27,692 nt of DNA from a virus: the IMG/VR virus record IMGVR_UViG_3300028609_000013, positions 1 to 27,692 of that record; one strand, 5' to 3'. Position 1 is the stretch's first letter. Each line of letters opens with the position of its first letter. Under the pieces are notes generated by a model. The model was given only the letters and a program-made list of their open reading frames with translations. It did not search any database and was not told the origin of the DNA. Position numbers and translations under genes: made by a program. Shown one piece after another: positions 16,364 through 26,020 of the stretch.

Positions 16364-16615
16364 CTACCAACCTAAAACGACGCGAACCGTATTCCCTAAC
16401 AACACCACTACGAGTCCTGCAATCCCCGACGCCAGCCATATTAGGGCGTTTACCCTAGTGGACAGCCCTATACCACCGTTTCCCCAGATTTCTCGTTCCA
16501 GCCGCTCGATCCGCCTGCAGAGTGCAGGTAGCATCCCTGCTATTTCGGCCACCGACACCCGCACGTCGTCCAGTTTTTCCTCTACCCGCTGTAATCGTTC
16601 GCTGTCGTGTGTCAC
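16364..16615 (-). CDS. Small holin/XhlA-like membrane protein
   Basis: The chosen start is GTG 16615, overlapping the peptidase stop as GTGA; the longer upstream frame has unlikely Cys/Gly-rich residues and overlaps the peptidase. The 83-residue product starts with a coiled-coil-like segment (SERLQRVEEKLDDVRVSVAEIAGMLPALCRRIERLEREI), then one hydrophobic segment (VNALIWLASGIAGLVVVLLGN) and a short basic tail. This resembles XhlA-type holin-associated proteins, which have a cytosolic helix and one membrane segment. Position between a peptidase and the terminases supports a lysis role. A membrane-anchored head or packaging protein is possible. No second membrane protein is seen nearby. Confidence 0.72.
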   Translation of the reverse strand: MTHDSERLQRVEEKLDDVRVSVAEIAGMLPALCRRIERLEREIWGNGGIGLSTRVNALIWLASGIAGLVVVLLGNTVRVVLGW

Positions 16616-17388
16616 TCGTCTCCCTCCGGATCGACAACAACTCTCACCGCCCAACCATCTGTCCAAAACGCATCCCTGAAATAACTCTCGGGTACGATCG
16701 CCATACCCCGCTGCCCCCAATCCGGCCCCCACGAATTTACAACTTTCACCCCCCATTGGTTGTATTTTTGAGCGAGCCCTACCGCACACATAGCATGTCC
16801 ACCTGCCCGCCCTACGCGGCTAGGGATCCACCCATCAGGCCCCGGGATAAAGTTAGCGCCTATCAATATACCAATGTTTACCCCAAAGCCTAACTGAATA
16901 GCGCTCGCGATATGCTCAAACGTAGGGCAATCCCAGGCTTCCAAAACACGAAACTTCTTGGCATCCTCTTCCCACCCCTTCGGCCACCTGGACGGCTGCC
17001 AGTGGAGATGGGGCACAATACTGGCGCGGCAGACACCTCGCAGTTCCAGCTCCCGTATCGCATCAACTAAAGTCGATCCTGCGTCCCGCCCCCCATTTAT
17101 ACGTCCGTACAGGTTGCCTGCAGAAAGCTCGACATAGGGCGCCCCCGCTGCAGCACGAAGCAGGTGGATCGCCTGCACACTAGCAAACGCATTACAGGCG
17201 CCTGTCCTGCCCTGGTCTAAAACCCGGGTTATGAAATGGCTCCAGTCGCACGGCCGCCACTCGGCGCCCGGGATTAAACGTCCCCCTCGGCTCGTGCCGA
17301 ACACCGGGTAAACGCTTCCCGGATACGCCGTCCGGGGCAAACACCCCAGAACACGCTCCACTCCAGCAATCAACGCTACAGTTGCCAT
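16612..17388 (-). CDS. Papain-like (C1-type) cysteine peptidase, candidate endolysin
   Basis: The product has 258 residues with the C1 peptidase signature. Residues 57-69 (VLDQGRTGACNAF) hold the oxyanion Gln59 and nucleophile Cys65, GGHAMCAVG holds His198, and VVNSWGPDWGQRG holds Asn218. All three catalytic positions and the closing NSWG-xxWG motif are present. I see no pro-domain inhibitor of the usual length and no clear signal peptide. It lies between a signal-peptide protein and a holin-like gene, so it may be the lytic enzyme acting on cell-surface protein or peptide cross-links. A virion-maturation or adsorption protease is the alternative. The enzyme class is well supported; the lysis role is inference from context. 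Confidence 0.9.
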   Translation of the reverse strand: MATVALIAGVERVLGCLPRTAYPGSVYPVFGTSRGGRLIPGAEWRPCDWSHFITRVLDQGRTGACNAFASVQAIHLLRAAAGAPYVELSAGNLYGRINGGRDAGSTLVDAIRELELRGVCRASIVPHLHWQPSRWPKGWEEDAKKFRVLEAWDCPTFEHIASAIQLGFGVNIGILIGANFIPGPDGWIPSRVGRAGGHAMCAVGLAQKYNQWGVKVVNSWGPDWGQRGMAIVPESYFRDAFWTDGWAVRVVVDPEGDE

Positions 17389-18135: not shown

Positions 18136-18354
18136 CTAGGTCTCTCTATCCGTCCCTCGCTCTAACTCGCCCAACGCGTCACTGAAACTCCTGTACACAG
18201 GCGCGAACCCAGGCCCTAACAGTCGATACAGCACCAAAACCAACTCCGCCACCTCCTTGGCAATCAATAAAGCCTCTCCCGGTGTAATCCTCCCGTCAGC
18301 ACTAGCCTGCCGCACCGCCTCAATAACGTCCCGCAGCTCTTTAACTAGGTCCAT
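18136..18354 (-). CDS. Small helical protein of unknown function
   Basis: The chosen start ATG 18354 has GGGAGA about eight bases upstream; a longer frame from 18414 would begin within the -10 box of the likely promoter. The 72-residue product (MDLVKELRDVIEAVRQASAD...) is helical, with a hydrophobic segment (AKEVAELVLVLYRLLG) that is amphipathic rather than a clear membrane span. It is the first gene after the repeat-rich region, so it begins the lysis/late operon. A holin-like or regulatory role cannot be told apart here. Confidence 0.7.
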   Translation of the reverse strand: MDLVKELRDVIEAVRQASADGRITPGEALLIAKEVAELVLVLYRLLGPGFAPVYRSFSDALGELERGTDRET

Positions 18355-18413
18355 AACCAATCTCCCTATTCGACTCTGCCGACGCACCCACTGTACAAAC
18401 ACTCCCCAAAACA

Positions 18414-18419
18414 ATTATA
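18414..18419 (-). promoter_or_regulatory. Candidate late promoter -10 box
   Basis: TATAAT occurs on the minus strand about 60 bases before the first lysis gene. No good -35 box lies 16-18 bases upstream, where the sequence is G-rich. If functional, this promoter may need a phage activator or an extended -10, and it would drive the lysis and structural genes. Confidence 0.4.
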
Positions 18420-18528
18420 CCGCCCACCCCCCAACCCGCCAGCACCTAAACGCCACATTAGTAGAGATCAGCCAAGATTAGTAGAGATCAGTTGCCAAAT
18501 CACCTTAGTGATCTCTACTAAAATATGT

Positions 18529-18572
18529 CCGTTCCTGGCCGTTCCTGGCCGTGCGCGGCCGCTCCTGACCGG
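18529..18572 (+). repeat. Left 10 bp tandem array, CCGTTCCTGG-type
   Basis: Units are CCGTTCCTGG, CCGTTCCTGG, CCGTGCGCGG and CCGCTCCTGA, followed by CCGG. Each is 10 bases long, close to one helical turn, so proteins bound to each unit would line up on one DNA face. Confidence 0.85.
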
Positions 18573-18714
18573 AAATAGTAGAGATAGTAGAGATGACCTC
18601 TGCTGTCCACCCGCTACTGTCTTTGTGTCCTGCCATTTTTCCGATCGTTTTGATCGATCACGATTTCCCCCTTACGGTTAGCACTACTATCTCTACTATC
18701 TCTACTGTTTTCGG

Positions 18715-18754
18715 CCAGGAACGGTCAGGAGCGGTCAGGAGCGGTCAGGAGCGG
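18715..18754 (-). repeat. Right 10 bp tandem array, complement of the left array
   Basis: Units on the plus strand are CCAGGAACGG then three copies of TCAGGAGCGG. The block is the mirror image of the left array, with the same start-to-centre distance. Confidence 0.85.
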
Positions 18755-18856
18755 ACAATTTTTAGTAGAGATAATATTTGTGATCACTCTACTAATCTCT
18801 ACTATTTCGGCCTGCATCTCTACTGCCTCCGTCGCTCGTGGTCCGTTTGAGGGGGC

Positions 18857-21412
18857 TTATTCTTCCTCCTGTCTCCACGCCTGTTCACTACGCTCAATCC
18901 GGTAGCGGGTGTACCCCATTGTTTTGCCTGCTGGGACTAGCCGTCGGCCACCGTACTCCTGTTCGGCCATTCGCCTAAACAGGTAGCCCAGTGAGTCGTG
19001 TGCCAGTGCCTTGGGAGCTACGCTGGCGCTTAGGAGCGTTTCTAGTTCCTGTGCCTCTGGGGAGTTGTGCCTGGATGTTTGTAGCAACTGCAGCACAGTG
19101 CGAACAGTAAAATGCTGGGCAGCGAATTGCCGGTCTAAAAGTTCAAGAATCGCAATTTTCCGTTCGTAATCGGGGTCATCTTCGAGTTTTACTCTAGCGG
19201 TCCAGGGGTCGGGATAACCTAACCAAATGAGCGACTCGCGGACTATCTGGCCCCATTTCCTGAAGATGGTCAGCGTCGGGACCTGCCGTGATATAGGTCT
19301 CCCTGCGATCAGGTACGCTTTTGCGATGATGAGAAAGCAGCTAATCAATTCCTTCCTGACTTTTTGGGTTAACGCGATTACATCAGGGGGATTGCCGGGA
19401 GCCATATCTGGGTCGCCCGTCTGAGTTCGGCTATCAAGATGCACCTCGAGAGTCCTGCGCGCCAGATCTCCGCCAACCTGGACGTTATTGCCATTAATAA
19501 GGTAAAGAAACCGATTGGGGTGTTCCACAATTCTGCTTTCCCCAAGCAAGCGGAAGGATAGTCGCGGGCTGGTCAGAAAGCTGGCCAATTGATCACTACT
19601 CAGTCGCTTGTTGTAGTTGTCGATACTGATAACAGGCCAACCCTGATGGATAGCGCTCTCGATGCGCTTATCGATCTCCTCGTGCGCCTCTCTAGGTGTT
19701 ATTCTGGATACTACTCGGCCTGTGGCAATAACAGCCACAAGGTCAGCAAGCAAAGTTTTGCCTGCGCCCTGTCTCGTCGCTGATATCATGAATAGCGGTG
19801 TCTGGTCGAGTGAAGGGAGAACTGCAGCGGTATAGAGGCAGGCTAGGCCCACGCTTTCAGAAAGGGTATTAGCGAACTTAAAGGGAAGCGAGTGCACTAG
19901 TGTCAATACCCCATCCAGGGCGCGTTTAGCGTTTTCTATCGTGGGCCTTTCGGGTATTTGCTCTAGAATGTCTGTCCAGTTGTCGGTGAAGAAAAGGCCG
20001 GTTTCGGAGTCGTGCCCTAAGGGCGCCCGTATCTCTCCGTTTGTGTCGATATAGGGCGTGTAGGCGAACCCAGCGAACGGCAGAAGAGTAGTTTCAGGAT
20101 TGTCTAGGAGAAGAGAGAGAACACTGGAGGGAATAGGTCTTTCTTCAAGAGTTTCAGGATCTGTGAAGCGGACGTGGTCCGCCAGCAGGAGAAGGACGGC
20201 TTCCGGTGACGGAGGATGGATCTGATACTCTAACTCGCTGTTTTTCGCTGCCGAGCATTTTTTTACCACAACAAGACTAGAGCCCATCCGGTAAAGCGGC
20301 ACCGCCTTGGTGACGATAACATGTTCAAGCTGTTTGACGATTCGCTTTAATCGCTGCGGCAGGGGCGAATACTCGATGACTGTACGGTTGTCATCCTTGT
20401 AGTCGACGAGGGACCGGATGGCACGGATGATAGACTCGGGCACTCCTGCTTCTAAAAGAAGAGAAGCGGCTGCGACATCTTCCAGTGGTTTGTCATAGGT
20501 AGTTTCCAGTGTTTTATATCTATCGGGCAAGTTGTTGTTGGGCAGCAGTGCGACACATTCATCGTAGATGCGTTGACTATCCTCGCGTGAGAGGCCGCTG
20601 CGGCGGAGCAACCCGGCCAAACCCAGCGACAGTTTGTGCCGACTGCCATCGGTCCAGTATGGCGCCAGGAGTTCTTTAAGTTGGCGGGCGACTACGTTAG
20701 TGTCGCGAGCCGTGGGCGGTTTGGCCTGCCGTTGCTGTTGGGGAGTTAGTTGGCGCCGGGGCGTCGCGCGCTGTTTTTTGAAGATGGCTTTGAGCAGTTT
20801 AGGGGGCACAGGGGAGATATCGCGATCATTAATGAACCTGTACCTGTGGCCAGAGGGATGTAAGGACGGGGCAACGACCACGAACTGTCCGTCCCGTTTA
20901 ACTTCGATATGATCTCCCAGCTGCGACGCGAGGGAAAAACCAGCAGGGACGTCGGGGTACTGAAAAAACAGATGTACACCGCGCCCGGTACGGGCAACAA
21001 GGGTATAGTCTCGTGTAAGGCCAAACTCTTTTTTAAGCCAGAGAAGCTGTTTTTCAGGCTGGTCGATGTCGAGAACCAGCACGCCAGACGCGCGACCGCA
21101 AACTAGTCCGAGATTGCATTTTAACGGAAGGAATTTTTGAAGAAGGGCCTCATCAAATCTAGTTGTAGTCTCCCAGCCTACGATCATGGGGTGTTTTCCC
21201 GGGGTTCTGCACAGTGGCTCACCCGAGGCCAAGCGCTTGATATCCCCACATCGACAGAGGAACTGGTTGTTGCACTGCGTTAGGCCGTAAACGGGAATAA
21301 TCGGCCAATCACGACTTTTGTATGCGGCCACCGCTTGTTCAATCGTGCAGATGGAAGAAAGGCCGGCGCCTGAAAAACGGTTACTGTGTGTTTGGGGCTG
21401 GGTGTTGTTCAT
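18857..21412 (-). CDS. Primase-polymerase / SF3-type helicase fusion
   Basis: The product has 851 residues. Residues 20-215 resemble a bifunctional primase-polymerase: Cys47, Cys53, Cys55 and Cys68 may bind zinc, GKHP at 72-75 and VLVLDIDQP (Asp115, Asp117) hold catalytic acids, RTGRGVHLFF at 141-150 carries His147, and FVVVAPSLHPSGHRY matches the family. The C-terminal part holds Walker A ATRQGAGKT (545-553), Walker B VISID (594-598), a sensor-like LINGNN (638-643) and GDLARRTLEVHLD with Arg652/653. It would unwind and prime at the origin. Phages with this fusion often place it next to the origin; the repeat array lies just after its stop. It overlaps the HTH gene by 32 bases. Confidence 0.9.
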   Translation of the reverse strand: MNNTQPQTHSNRFSGAGLSSICTIEQAVAAYKSRDWPIIPVYGLTQCNNQFLCRCGDIKRLASGEPLCRTPGKHPMIVGWETTTRFDEALLQKFLPLKCNLGLVCGRASGVLVLDIDQPEKQLLWLKKEFGLTRDYTLVARTGRGVHLFFQYPDVPAGFSLASQLGDHIEVKRDGQFVVVAPSLHPSGHRYRFINDRDISPVPPKLLKAIFKKQRATPRRQLTPQQQRQAKPPTARDTNVVARQLKELLAPYWTDGSRHKLSLGLAGLLRRSGLSREDSQRIYDECVALLPNNNLPDRYKTLETTYDKPLEDVAAASLLLEAGVPESIIRAIRSLVDYKDDNRTVIEYSPLPQRLKRIVKQLEHVIVTKAVPLYRMGSSLVVVKKCSAAKNSELEYQIHPPSPEAVLLLLADHVRFTDPETLEERPIPSSVLSLLLDNPETTLLPFAGFAYTPYIDTNGEIRAPLGHDSETGLFFTDNWTDILEQIPERPTIENAKRALDGVLTLVHSLPFKFANTLSESVGLACLYTAAVLPSLDQTPLFMISATRQGAGKTLLADLVAVIATGRVVSRITPREAHEEIDKRIESAIHQGWPVISIDNYNKRLSSDQLASFLTSPRLSFRLLGESRIVEHPNRFLYLINGNNVQVGGDLARRTLEVHLDSRTQTGDPDMAPGNPPDVIALTQKVRKELISCFLIIAKAYLIAGRPISRQVPTLTIFRKWGQIVRESLIWLGYPDPWTARVKLEDDPDYERKIAILELLDRQFAAQHFTVRTVLQLLQTSRHNSPEAQELETLLSASVAPKALAHDSLGYLFRRMAEQEYGGRRLVPAGKTMGYTRYRIERSEQAWRQEEE

Positions 21413-21584
21413 GTGTACGGACCCACTCTCGTAACGTATCCGAGCGGAACAGTCGTCGACTGCCTATTTGTACAGTAGGCAGTTTTCCTTCCTTTACTAG
21501 CCGCCGGATCGTTCGCTCACTAACTCCGAGTACAGCGGCAGCTTCGCGGATGTTCAGTAGCAGTTTCCCAGGGGAGTTATCCAT
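21381..21584 (-). CDS. Small excisionase-like helix-turn-helix protein
   Basis: The product has 67 residues. Residues 9-30 (LNIREAAAVLGVSERTIRRLVKEGKLP) and the following QIGSRRLFRSDTLREWV match the DNA-binding helix-turn-helix 17/excisionase layout (MerR-like winged helix). Such small proteins often act as transcription factors or excisionases. No integrase is in the window, so a regulator, possibly of the nearby repeat array, is more likely; this is inference. An AAGGAGG ribosome site precedes ATG 21584. Its end overlaps the primase start, so the two are co-expressed. Confidence 0.85.
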   Translation of the reverse strand: MDNSPGKLLLNIREAAAVLGVSERTIRRLVKEGKLPTVQIGSRRLFRSDTLREWVRTHEQHPAPNTQ

Positions 21585-23252: not shown

Positions 23253-23617
23253 GTCAGTTCATCTCCTGTCATTACGACTCGTATGATCCGCGGTTTCCAG
23301 ACGCGGCGATTCCTGCGCCGTAGGCGCCTCCACCACCACAGCTCGATCGATCCTCCAGCACGGAGCCACGCCACAGCAGCAGCACGCGTAGACTCATCCT
23401 CCATGATCCGCTGCAGATGTCTGCCATGTCCGCAGGTGTAGGCCTGTATAGCGACGATGGAGCGTTCCCCGATGGCCACAATATCGATAAACCCGAAAAG
23501 ATCTTGGCGTCGTTTCGCCTGGGGAATCCACCGTTCGACGACGTCGGCGACGATATTTGTTTCTCGCAGGTACCGTAGGGTTAGTTTGTTGGCCTGAGTG
23601 CCCATACGAGTGTTCAC
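23210..23617 (-). CDS. PD-(D/E)XK-like small nuclease
   Basis: The product has 135 residues, starts at GTG 23617 and overlaps the clamp stop as GTGA. Residues 37-60 (RRQDLFGFIDIVAIGERSIVAIQAY) form the Holliday-junction-resolvase-like strand pair: Asp45, then a hydrophobic strand with Gln58 where other members carry Glu or Gln. RHLQRI and AVAWLRAGGSIELWWWRR follow as in related phage nucleases, ending with W-P-R. The loss of a full acidic D...E-x-K triad means activity is not certain. Its place between clamp and recombination genes fits repair or resolution of branched DNA. The C-terminal end is short and basic. Confidence 0.8.
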   Translation of the reverse strand: MNTRMGTQANKLTLRYLRETNIVADVVERWIPQAKRRQDLFGFIDIVAIGERSIVAIQAYTCGHGRHLQRIMEDESTRAAAVAWLRAGGSIELWWWRRLRRRNRRVWKPRIIRVVMTGDELTCSANTDKSAVDGT

Positions 23618-24726
23618 CTAGTTGCTAGTGGCATGAGGAGGGCGCGGTATCCGCCTGCCCGAATCTGAATGGGCTGTGTCGGCCCGTAGAAACCCAGCAG
23701 AGCATTTTTTTCTCTAATCGGATGTAAGGCCTCAAGAAGGTATCGTGCACGGACCCTGAGTGCGACCTCTCCGTCTCGGATCGCACGTACGGGTAGGCGT
23801 CCACATCCCTTTGCGGCTTCACTCTCTGCACCGATGTAAAGCGTGTTCTGAGCTACCGTCAGAGTCACTGGTTGCATCGCCCCATCGACAGCGCGGGCGA
23901 TTTGCCGGATTAAGCGGGCAAGCTCACTAATGTCGACCTCAGTCTCTATGGGAGGTTCTTGACTAGGCAGAACCTTTTTCCAGTCTGGATAGTGCCCAGA
24001 GAGCCTGCGCAGCCATACTGTGTACAGTGGTGAAGTGACGCACAAAAACGACGCGTTATAGGCCAAACTAACTGTATCAGTACTAAGCAGTTTTAAAAGC
24101 ACGCCGATTGCTCGTAGACCGTTGGGCAGTACGAGAATATTTCTCCAGGTGCACGGCCGTTCCATCTGCACTGAGGCAGTGTATGTGGCCATGCGTTTAT
24201 TATCTGTGGTGACGACGGTGAATTGGTTCGGCTCGTCTATGTCAAAAAGCACTCCATCTAGTGCGCAGTACTGGGTTTCGCGCGTTGTCGCGTACAGTAC
24301 ATGACGAAGAGCCTGCAGAAACTCCTCGGCAGATATGGTAACCGGATCGACCTCGCTAGCACGATCGGGAAGCGGCGGAAACTCGTTTACCTCTGGCGTA
24401 TGAAACTCGACGGCGGCTGTACTGCTGGACACCAGTACACCTGAGTCGGTTGTGCAGAAGTGGAGATGACTGCCCCTCTGCCCGGCTAAAAAACGAAGAA
24501 AACGGGCCAGGGGAATAAGCGCAGCCCCATCTTCGTCAAGGATGGCTGCCTCAGTTTTCACCTGGCAGAAATGGTCGAAATCGGTGAAATCGATAGCTAC
24601 CTCCTGTTTCCTGGCTACGATGCGGACATGCGGCGCGATACGCCCACCTATGGCTGGACTAGGGCACAGCCGTTCAGCTGCCGCTAGCACCCGTCGCAGT
24701 GACTGTGTTTCGAGGGCAATCTTCAT
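23614..24726 (-). CDS. dnaN: DNA sliding clamp (DnaN/beta-type)
   Basis: The product has 370 residues, matching the 360-380 of bacterial beta clamps. The start MKIALETQSLRRVLAAAERLCPS follows the typical N terminus of helix plus strand. The PEVNEFPPLP, EFLQALRHVLYATTRE and DGVLFDI stretches are those of the second clamp domain, and FTVVTTDNKRMATYTAS fits the typical 'TDG-RL' strand region. The C terminus (YRALLMPLATR) resembles the usual 'iMPmR'. The clamp tethers polymerase to DNA. No polymerase is present in this window, so it may serve the host or an out-of-window polymerase. An AAGGGA ribosome site precedes ATG 24726. A terminator sits about 40 bases before the start. Confidence 0.92.
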   Translation of the reverse strand: MKIALETQSLRRVLAAAERLCPSPAIGGRIAPHVRIVARKQEVAIDFTDFDHFCQVKTEAAILDEDGAALIPLARFLRFLAGQRGSHLHFCTTDSGVLVSSSTAAVEFHTPEVNEFPPLPDRASEVDPVTISAEEFLQALRHVLYATTRETQYCALDGVLFDIDEPNQFTVVTTDNKRMATYTASVQMERPCTWRNILVLPNGLRAIGVLLKLLSTDTVSLAYNASFLCVTSPLYTVWLRRLSGHYPDWKKVLPSQEPPIETEVDISELARLIRQIARAVDGAMQPVTLTVAQNTLYIGAESEAAKGCGRLPVRAIRDGEVALRVRARYLLEALHPIREKNALLGFYGPTQPIQIRAGGYRALLMPLATR

Positions 24727-25741: not shown

Positions 25742-26020
25742 CTAGACGGACGCAAGGGGCCGCTCAGGTACGAAAAGGGTCTCTATGTCTCTAAACGTAG
25801 TAGGTTTAGAATATCGTGGGGTTCGTTTTGGTTTTGGGTTCTCTTGTTTCCATCGCACGACGTCCTCCAGGCAGACTGCGATGGCGTTTTTCCCCAGCCG
25901 CACGTAGCGGATTTGCCCGTAGCGCCTAGCGAGCATCCATATCCACTGCCGACTGGTACCGATGATCTGTGCCGCTAGTGGCGTAGACACCCAGTGTACA
26001 TCATTCTGGGTAGTGTTCAT
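25742..26020 (-). CDS. Helix-turn-helix DNA-binding protein
   Basis: The product has 92 residues. STPLAAQIIGTSRQWIWMLARRYGQIRYVRLGKNAIAVCLEDVVRWKQEN (from residue 12) is a winged helix-turn-helix of the excisionase/HTH-17 type: the helix pair, the 'R--R-G-' turn and the strand followed by the closing helix 'DV-RW'. The C terminus is basic and proline-rich. It is the sole gene between two operator-containing promoters, so it is a candidate repressor or activator acting on one or both; autoregulation is inferred. ATG 26020 follows GGAGGA at seven bases. It differs in sequence from the other small HTH protein. Confidence 0.85.
   Translation of the reverse strand: MNTTQNDVHWVSTPLAAQIIGTSRQWIWMLARRYGQIRYVRLGKNAIAVCLEDVVRWKQENPKPKRTPRYSKPTTFRDIETLFVPERPLASV

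Follow-up and report, generated by a model that had tools for sequence, protein, structure and literature searches.

A mirrored DNA element of ~370 bp (positions 18459–18825) is very probably the replication origin of a tailed phage. The element lies in an IMG/VR viral record, analysed over its whole length of 27,692 bases (hereinafter designated the window), that encodes portal, major head, scaffold and terminase proteins on the minus strand. It comprises ten TAGTAGAGAT sites and two decamer arrays, mirrored with exact spacing about a centre at 18641.5. Its position at the 3' end of a PrimPol-helicase gene, a GC-skew switch, the mirrored dyads of many relatives and the precedents of PICI/SaPI and pRN1 lend good support, at the level of sequence, to the origin proposed in an earlier note on this DNA.

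The left half of the element contains plus-strand TAGTAGAGAT sites at 18459–18468 and 18479–18488, a minus-strand site at 18511–18520 that faces the left decamer array (18529–18571, minus strand), and a plus-strand inner doublet with 9-bp spacing (18576–18585 and 18585–18594). The right half carries the same elements in mirrored order: a minus-strand inner doublet (18689–18698 and a CAGTAGAGAT site at 18698–18707), the right decamer array (18712–18754, plus strand), a plus-strand site facing it (18763–18772), and minus-strand sites at 18795–18804 and, outermost, at 18816–18825 (CAGTAGAGAT). The positions of mirror pairs sum to 37283 except for the outermost pair, which is off by 1 (37284), bearing out the earlier description of one ordered set of sites in both arms. 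The arrays mirror likewise (18529 + 18754 = 37283), but of the four 10-bp units claimed for each, the right array has four CGGYCAGGAR copies and the left only three good ones plus a degenerate unit, CGGCCGCGCA. When up to one mismatch is allowed, TAGTAGAGAT matches 11 times in the window compared with 1.0 expected in shuffles, and ten of these matches fall inside the element. No other cluster of the element's iterons is found elsewhere in the 27.7 kb, and Rfam and tRNA searches returned nothing.

Alignment of the element against the window's record by blastn pairs 18460–18594 with 18689–18824 in inverted orientation (76%, E 4.9e-22), confirming the giant diverged palindrome built from two iteron families, and includes an ungapped core of 116 nt (18479–18594 on the plus strand and 18689–18804 on the minus strand, 77%). 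Mirror identity is 8/47 inside the 94-bp centre (18595–18688), which is thus not mirrored, and 10/38 outside the arms. Between the arms, identity amounts to 38/39 in the sites, 29/40 in the decamer array and 22/37 in the spacers. The excess of the sites (97%) over the spacers (59%; p 3.8e-5) supports selection on the sites, which are thus constrained; the decamer array is not demonstrably better conserved than the spacers (p 0.24). The selection argued for in the earlier note is therefore supported for the TAGTAGAGAT sites and not demonstrable for the decamers. Since 59% identity is well above random even in the spacers, the arms probably descend from an old inverted duplication and diverged afterwards, rather than having been built independently as two halves. 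The centre is 50% A+T compared with 43% for the genome, the decamer centres are 36–42% A+T, and the T-rich flanks of the sites point into the decamer arrays, not into the 94-bp centre. The element could form a hairpin (z −12.2), as expected of any inverted repeat.

The element occupies a 440-bp intergenic gap between the primase-helicase gene (18857–21412, minus strand) and the first late gene (18136–18414), its outermost site lying 31 bp past the primase-helicase stop, so that the earlier placement between replication and late genes, directly after the primase-helicase, is correct. The replication module, which precedes the late genes in gene order, encodes the primase-helicase, a 67-aa HTH_17/excisionase-like DNA-binding protein (21381–21584, minus strand) that overlaps the primase start and is a putative second binder, RecT, a RecE-like YqaJ nuclease and a DNA clamp. 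The clamp (23614–24726) is a beta-type sliding clamp encoded by a roughly 30-kb phage, and on the late side a papain-family (C1) peptidase gene (16612–17388) shares 79–80% identity with its counterparts in two sister phages.

Although every gene is on the minus strand, the sign of the GC skew switches at the element within ~340 bp, near the position 18640 that the earlier note named for such a check; the cumulative minimum falls at 18980 on a curve that is flat from 18.5 to 19.1 kb. On the coding strand, third-codon-position skew is +0.65 and +0.40 beside the element and declines to ~0 at 1–3 kb; across the element, the primase and RecT genes have values of −0.17/−0.19. These signs fit diverging G-rich leading strands that leave the element. 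The switch also coincides with the module boundary, so recombination could contribute, and a compositional difference between the modules could explain it in part.

The 851-aa primase-helicase, the proposed initiator, contains an N-terminal PrimPol domain (PF09250, residues 30–204), an SF3/D5-type helicase (~440–745) and a winged-helix-like C-terminus (~749–851). The helicase region matched no Pfam model but aligns with many uncharacterised proteins, retaining the Walker A and B motifs, an NGNN motif and an RR pair. An AlphaFold2 model of the helicase (pLDDT 86.6), built from an alignment of 38 sequences (the window's protein and 37 viral homologs), matches vaccinia D5 (VIA-align Z 12.1), SaPI5 primase-helicase (11.9), PriRep1 with dsDNA (11.9), NrS-1 CTR (11.0) and papillomavirus E1 (10.6), the two scores of 11.9 being those of structure entries 7ola and 7pds. 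The predicted core thus has the fold of the SaPI/PICI Rep helicase, though D5, NrS-1 and E1 match similarly, all five matches lying within about 1.5 Z of each other. Model residues 327–429 run helix-strand-three helices-two strands, and from secondary structure alone the C-terminus is predicted to be winged-helix-like; folded by itself, the C-terminal domain is modelled with low confidence (53.8). For the helicase domain (18857–20146) and its relatives no Pfam-A model gives a good match, and they look like an unregistered SF3/D5-type helicase family. Weak RIG-I profile matches were judged coincidental. The NrS-1 template motif, which we take to be TTTGGTTA, occurs once in the window, outside the element and at chance level.

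The mirrored spacing that the earlier note expected in relatives recurs, with differing sequences, at the ends of homologous genes. With the window's primase-helicase protein as query, homologs were collected from planctomycete genomes and phages and 58 gene ends were tested. A mirrored-iteron dyad was called at a score of at least 8, a threshold chosen on this set; 25/58 gene ends, of which 22 also exceeded all 100 shuffles, reached it, as did 12 among roughly 320 control windows (Fisher p 1.8e-14). At this threshold, now set in advance, a second set of 46 viral genes (41 distinct), fetched with a helicase alignment, gave a dyad at the gene 3' end in 30/41 distinct genes versus 12/655 control windows (p 8e-34), a rate biased upward because that alignment is rich in dyad-bearing members, whereas the contrast with same-contig controls is unbiased. 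Among all genes tested, the window's dyad (score 68) is surpassed only by the near-identical pair L126/L127 (79).

The geometry of these dyads recurs while their iteron sequences vary, as exemplified by L028 (GGGAAGTAC), L032 (TGCGGGGTT), L034, L050, L084 and L081, in the last of which site orientations alternate as in the window. Iteron spacing has its mode at 9 bp and the centre gap a median of 67 bp. Sites in most relatives point inward at the dyad centre, many show the order site, TTATTTCC, centre, GGAAATAA, site, and the second repeat family is absent from most. Four dyads (L026, L027, L029 and L031), and more weakly a fifth (L033), fall within the last ~100 codons of the gene; in these five the centre contains an alternating CA/CG sequence and the encoded tail is of low complexity (THAHAHA). 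Whatever the iteron sequence, two motifs are enriched around the surveyed dyads, ACTTAC (23% vs 3% in control windows) and TATTTCC (26% vs 4%), and ATATAGA..GGGC.GAAA forms the end of many centres. Sites are better conserved than their surroundings in 5/8 comparisons of related pairs (clearly in 4) and less conserved in 3/8; in the L105/L106 pair the sites are identical at 82/82 positions and the surroundings at 77%. Iteron similarity rises with identity of the C-terminal domain (Mantel p 0.003), a correlation that is weak once the core is accounted for (partial correlation 0.17) and whose direction is that expected if this domain binds the iterons. The GC-skew jump at the dyads of viral relatives is weak (20/29 positive, p 0.06, mean rank 0.47).

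The window shares with these relatives 9-bp-spaced mirrored iterons at the end of the helicase gene. An nhmmer search with a core HMM built from the dyads of 36 relatives found no match in its element, so that the relatives' conserved centre motifs (TATTTCC, ACGCGCGAGA and ATATAGA..GGGC.GAAA) were not recognised there, indicating that the window is not a close sequence member of the relatives' dyads. T-tracts follow an orientation rule to a modest degree, occurring in 26/66 inside flanks and 9/66 outside flanks. The element may consist of two origin units of ~125 bp each in inverted orientation instead of one giant dyad: two standard dyads, in each of which the facing sites are ~55 bp apart and enclose a central decamer array. 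Because the orientation rule is only moderately consistent and the core HMM misses the window, we hold the two-dyad arrangement tentatively, at somewhat below even chances.

Two sister phages share the window's late genes and differ in the replication module. G001 (contig L008; major capsid protein 89% and TerL 72% identical to those of the window) has no replication module in common with it and encodes a different primase, whose module is flanked, at the locus equivalent to that of the element, by two inverted, diverged TGACGGTT iteron units (~125 bp) 4.1 kb apart. These units, at 2540–2690 and 6790–6940 of L008, bracket RusA and primase genes, with their inner ATTTCC ends facing each other; an overlap between the contig ends makes circular permutation of the genome probable. 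The second, L015 (major capsid protein 87%), has late genes as in the window, and its contig starts inside yet another replication module, a third type in the same phage group; its minus-strand ORF 295–1572 contains, at 859–1058, an AT-rich palindrome together with some nine iterons of 11 bp (GGTATGGGGTC). As modules and iterons in G001 and L015 both differ from those of the window, replication modules are swapped within the group, each with its own iterons. A DNA search for phages with the element gave no match, an exact iteron-dimer scan of viral contigs gave three matches, at chance level, and no close relative carrying the same replication module emerged when the window's primase, RecE and clamp served as queries.

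The HTH protein encoded at 25742–26020, put forward in the earlier note as a possible binder of the sites, loses ground here, since a sister phage whose replication module and iterons are both different retains a 63% homolog. The primase-helicase itself is the likelier ligand of at least one site family. We suggest that it would bind the TAGTAGAGAT iterons through its winged-helix-like C-terminal domain and that, the sites being mirrored, two SF3/D5-type hexamers would load in opposite orientation. The opposed hexamers could then melt the intervening DNA and travel away from each other, and the PrimPol domain would prime the exposed strands for bidirectional replication.

Three other functions were weighed against an origin. 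An unlikely one is a transcription control region, in which one or two DNA-binding proteins, such as the HTH_17 protein, would act on clusters of operators to switch expression from early replication to late genes. The 440-bp gap between early and late modules, the small HTH_17/excisionase-like protein encoded beside the primase and ten operator-like copies in two orientations all suit such a region, and the position between early and late genes is also compatible with a dual role. However, with all genes running the same way there are no divergent promoters on which a mirrored operator could act, the stretch 18300–19000 yielded no sigma-70-like promoter, and the dyad tracks the end of the primase-helicase gene across unrelated genomes, sometimes inside coding sequence; the skew switch would also be left unexplained. 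Slightly less probable still is an incompatibility, copy-control or partition locus with centromere-like iterons, comparable to plasmid inc repeats or to crr of P4, replication being initiated at another place. Copy control is often the role of iterons close to initiator genes, and P4 has in crr a second iteron site, near its alpha gene; yet no ParA/ParB-like gene was recognised in the window, the element is its only cluster of these iterons, and the skew minimum falls at the element. That the arms mark the termini of a mobile or site-specific recombination element, or stem from a recent functionless inverted duplication, would account for their clear duplication and for the inverted arms 4.1 kb apart around the primase module of G001, but we consider this very improbable, given that the sites are constrained relative to the spacers, that no transposase or recombinase was recognised near the element and that other genomes show the geometry again with different sequences.

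Among described origins, those of PICIs and SaPIs are the closest kind. In these, directly 3' of rep, a melting region lies between two sets of iterons, an organisation described in 2018 as unique to PICIs and as absent from every other bacterial replicon (PMC6092414). The window's element resembles them in lying immediately 3' of the initiator gene, in its two iteron sets around a central, presumed melting region, and in the modelled helicase fold of its initiator, which matches SaPI5 primase-helicase. It differs in belonging to a complete tailed phage; a PICI is a satellite without virion genes of its own, and the capsid, portal, scaffold and terminase genes present here show that the window is not one. 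Its primase is an AEP-type PrimPol, its helicase is not recognisably similar in sequence, its centre is only mildly A+T-rich, and its arms are mirrored, longer and supplemented by a second, decamer family. The C-terminal domains of SaPI Rep and SCCmec Cch2 bind iterons that follow the respective genes on the downstream side, and two hexamers have been proposed (PMC7581432). The putative SCCmec origin likewise lies in the intergenic region after the helicase gene, but it has three 5-nt iterons only, a separate primase and no mirrored arms of the window's size (PMC7581432). In pRN1 and phage BIP-1 one protein combines PrimPol, SF3 and winged-helix domains, and an origin-like stem-loop lies on the 3' side of its gene (PMC4234260). 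The window's protein shares the domain order of pRN1 ORF904 and BIP-1, its winged helix being predicted from secondary structure, and pRN1's essential origin is similarly placed just downstream of the gene in symmetric DNA (a large stem-loop); the pRN1 stem-loop spans ~100 nt and lacks iterons, in contrast to 370 bp with ten iterons here. P4 differs from the window in its Toprim primase, its two separated sites and its unrelated sequence. Alike are the repeated unit and the protein architecture, the C-terminal winged helix of the P4 alpha primase-helicase binding iterons (PMC4234260). The window represents an elaborated variant of the PICI/SaPI kind, with two site families and possibly two inverted dyads.

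Taken together, we lean, by a modest margin over even chances, towards mirrored-iteron origins at the gene 3' end being general to a broad SF3/D5-type primase-helicase family that lacks a Pfam model and spans phages and other elements, with iteron sequence free and geometry kept, some origins lying in the initiator's last codons, and the window representing a doubled inverted form with a second site family in the dyad centres. Mirrored putative start sites of the same kind follow dozens of related genes elsewhere among viruses and bacteria. A PICI-like organisation here occurs in a complete phage and widely beyond, as judged against the open-access literature that we searched (an earlier description elsewhere is possible), which puts in question the 2018 claim of an organisation confined to PICIs and hints at a replicon type common to phages, satellites and other elements. 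With its mirrored layout, the element would allow head-to-head loading of two SF3 helicases to be tested directly. Looking for mirrored iterons, mostly spaced at 9 bp, where a primase-helicase gene ends provides a sequence-independent rule for finding origins, applicable to uncultivated phages whose origins are otherwise unknown.
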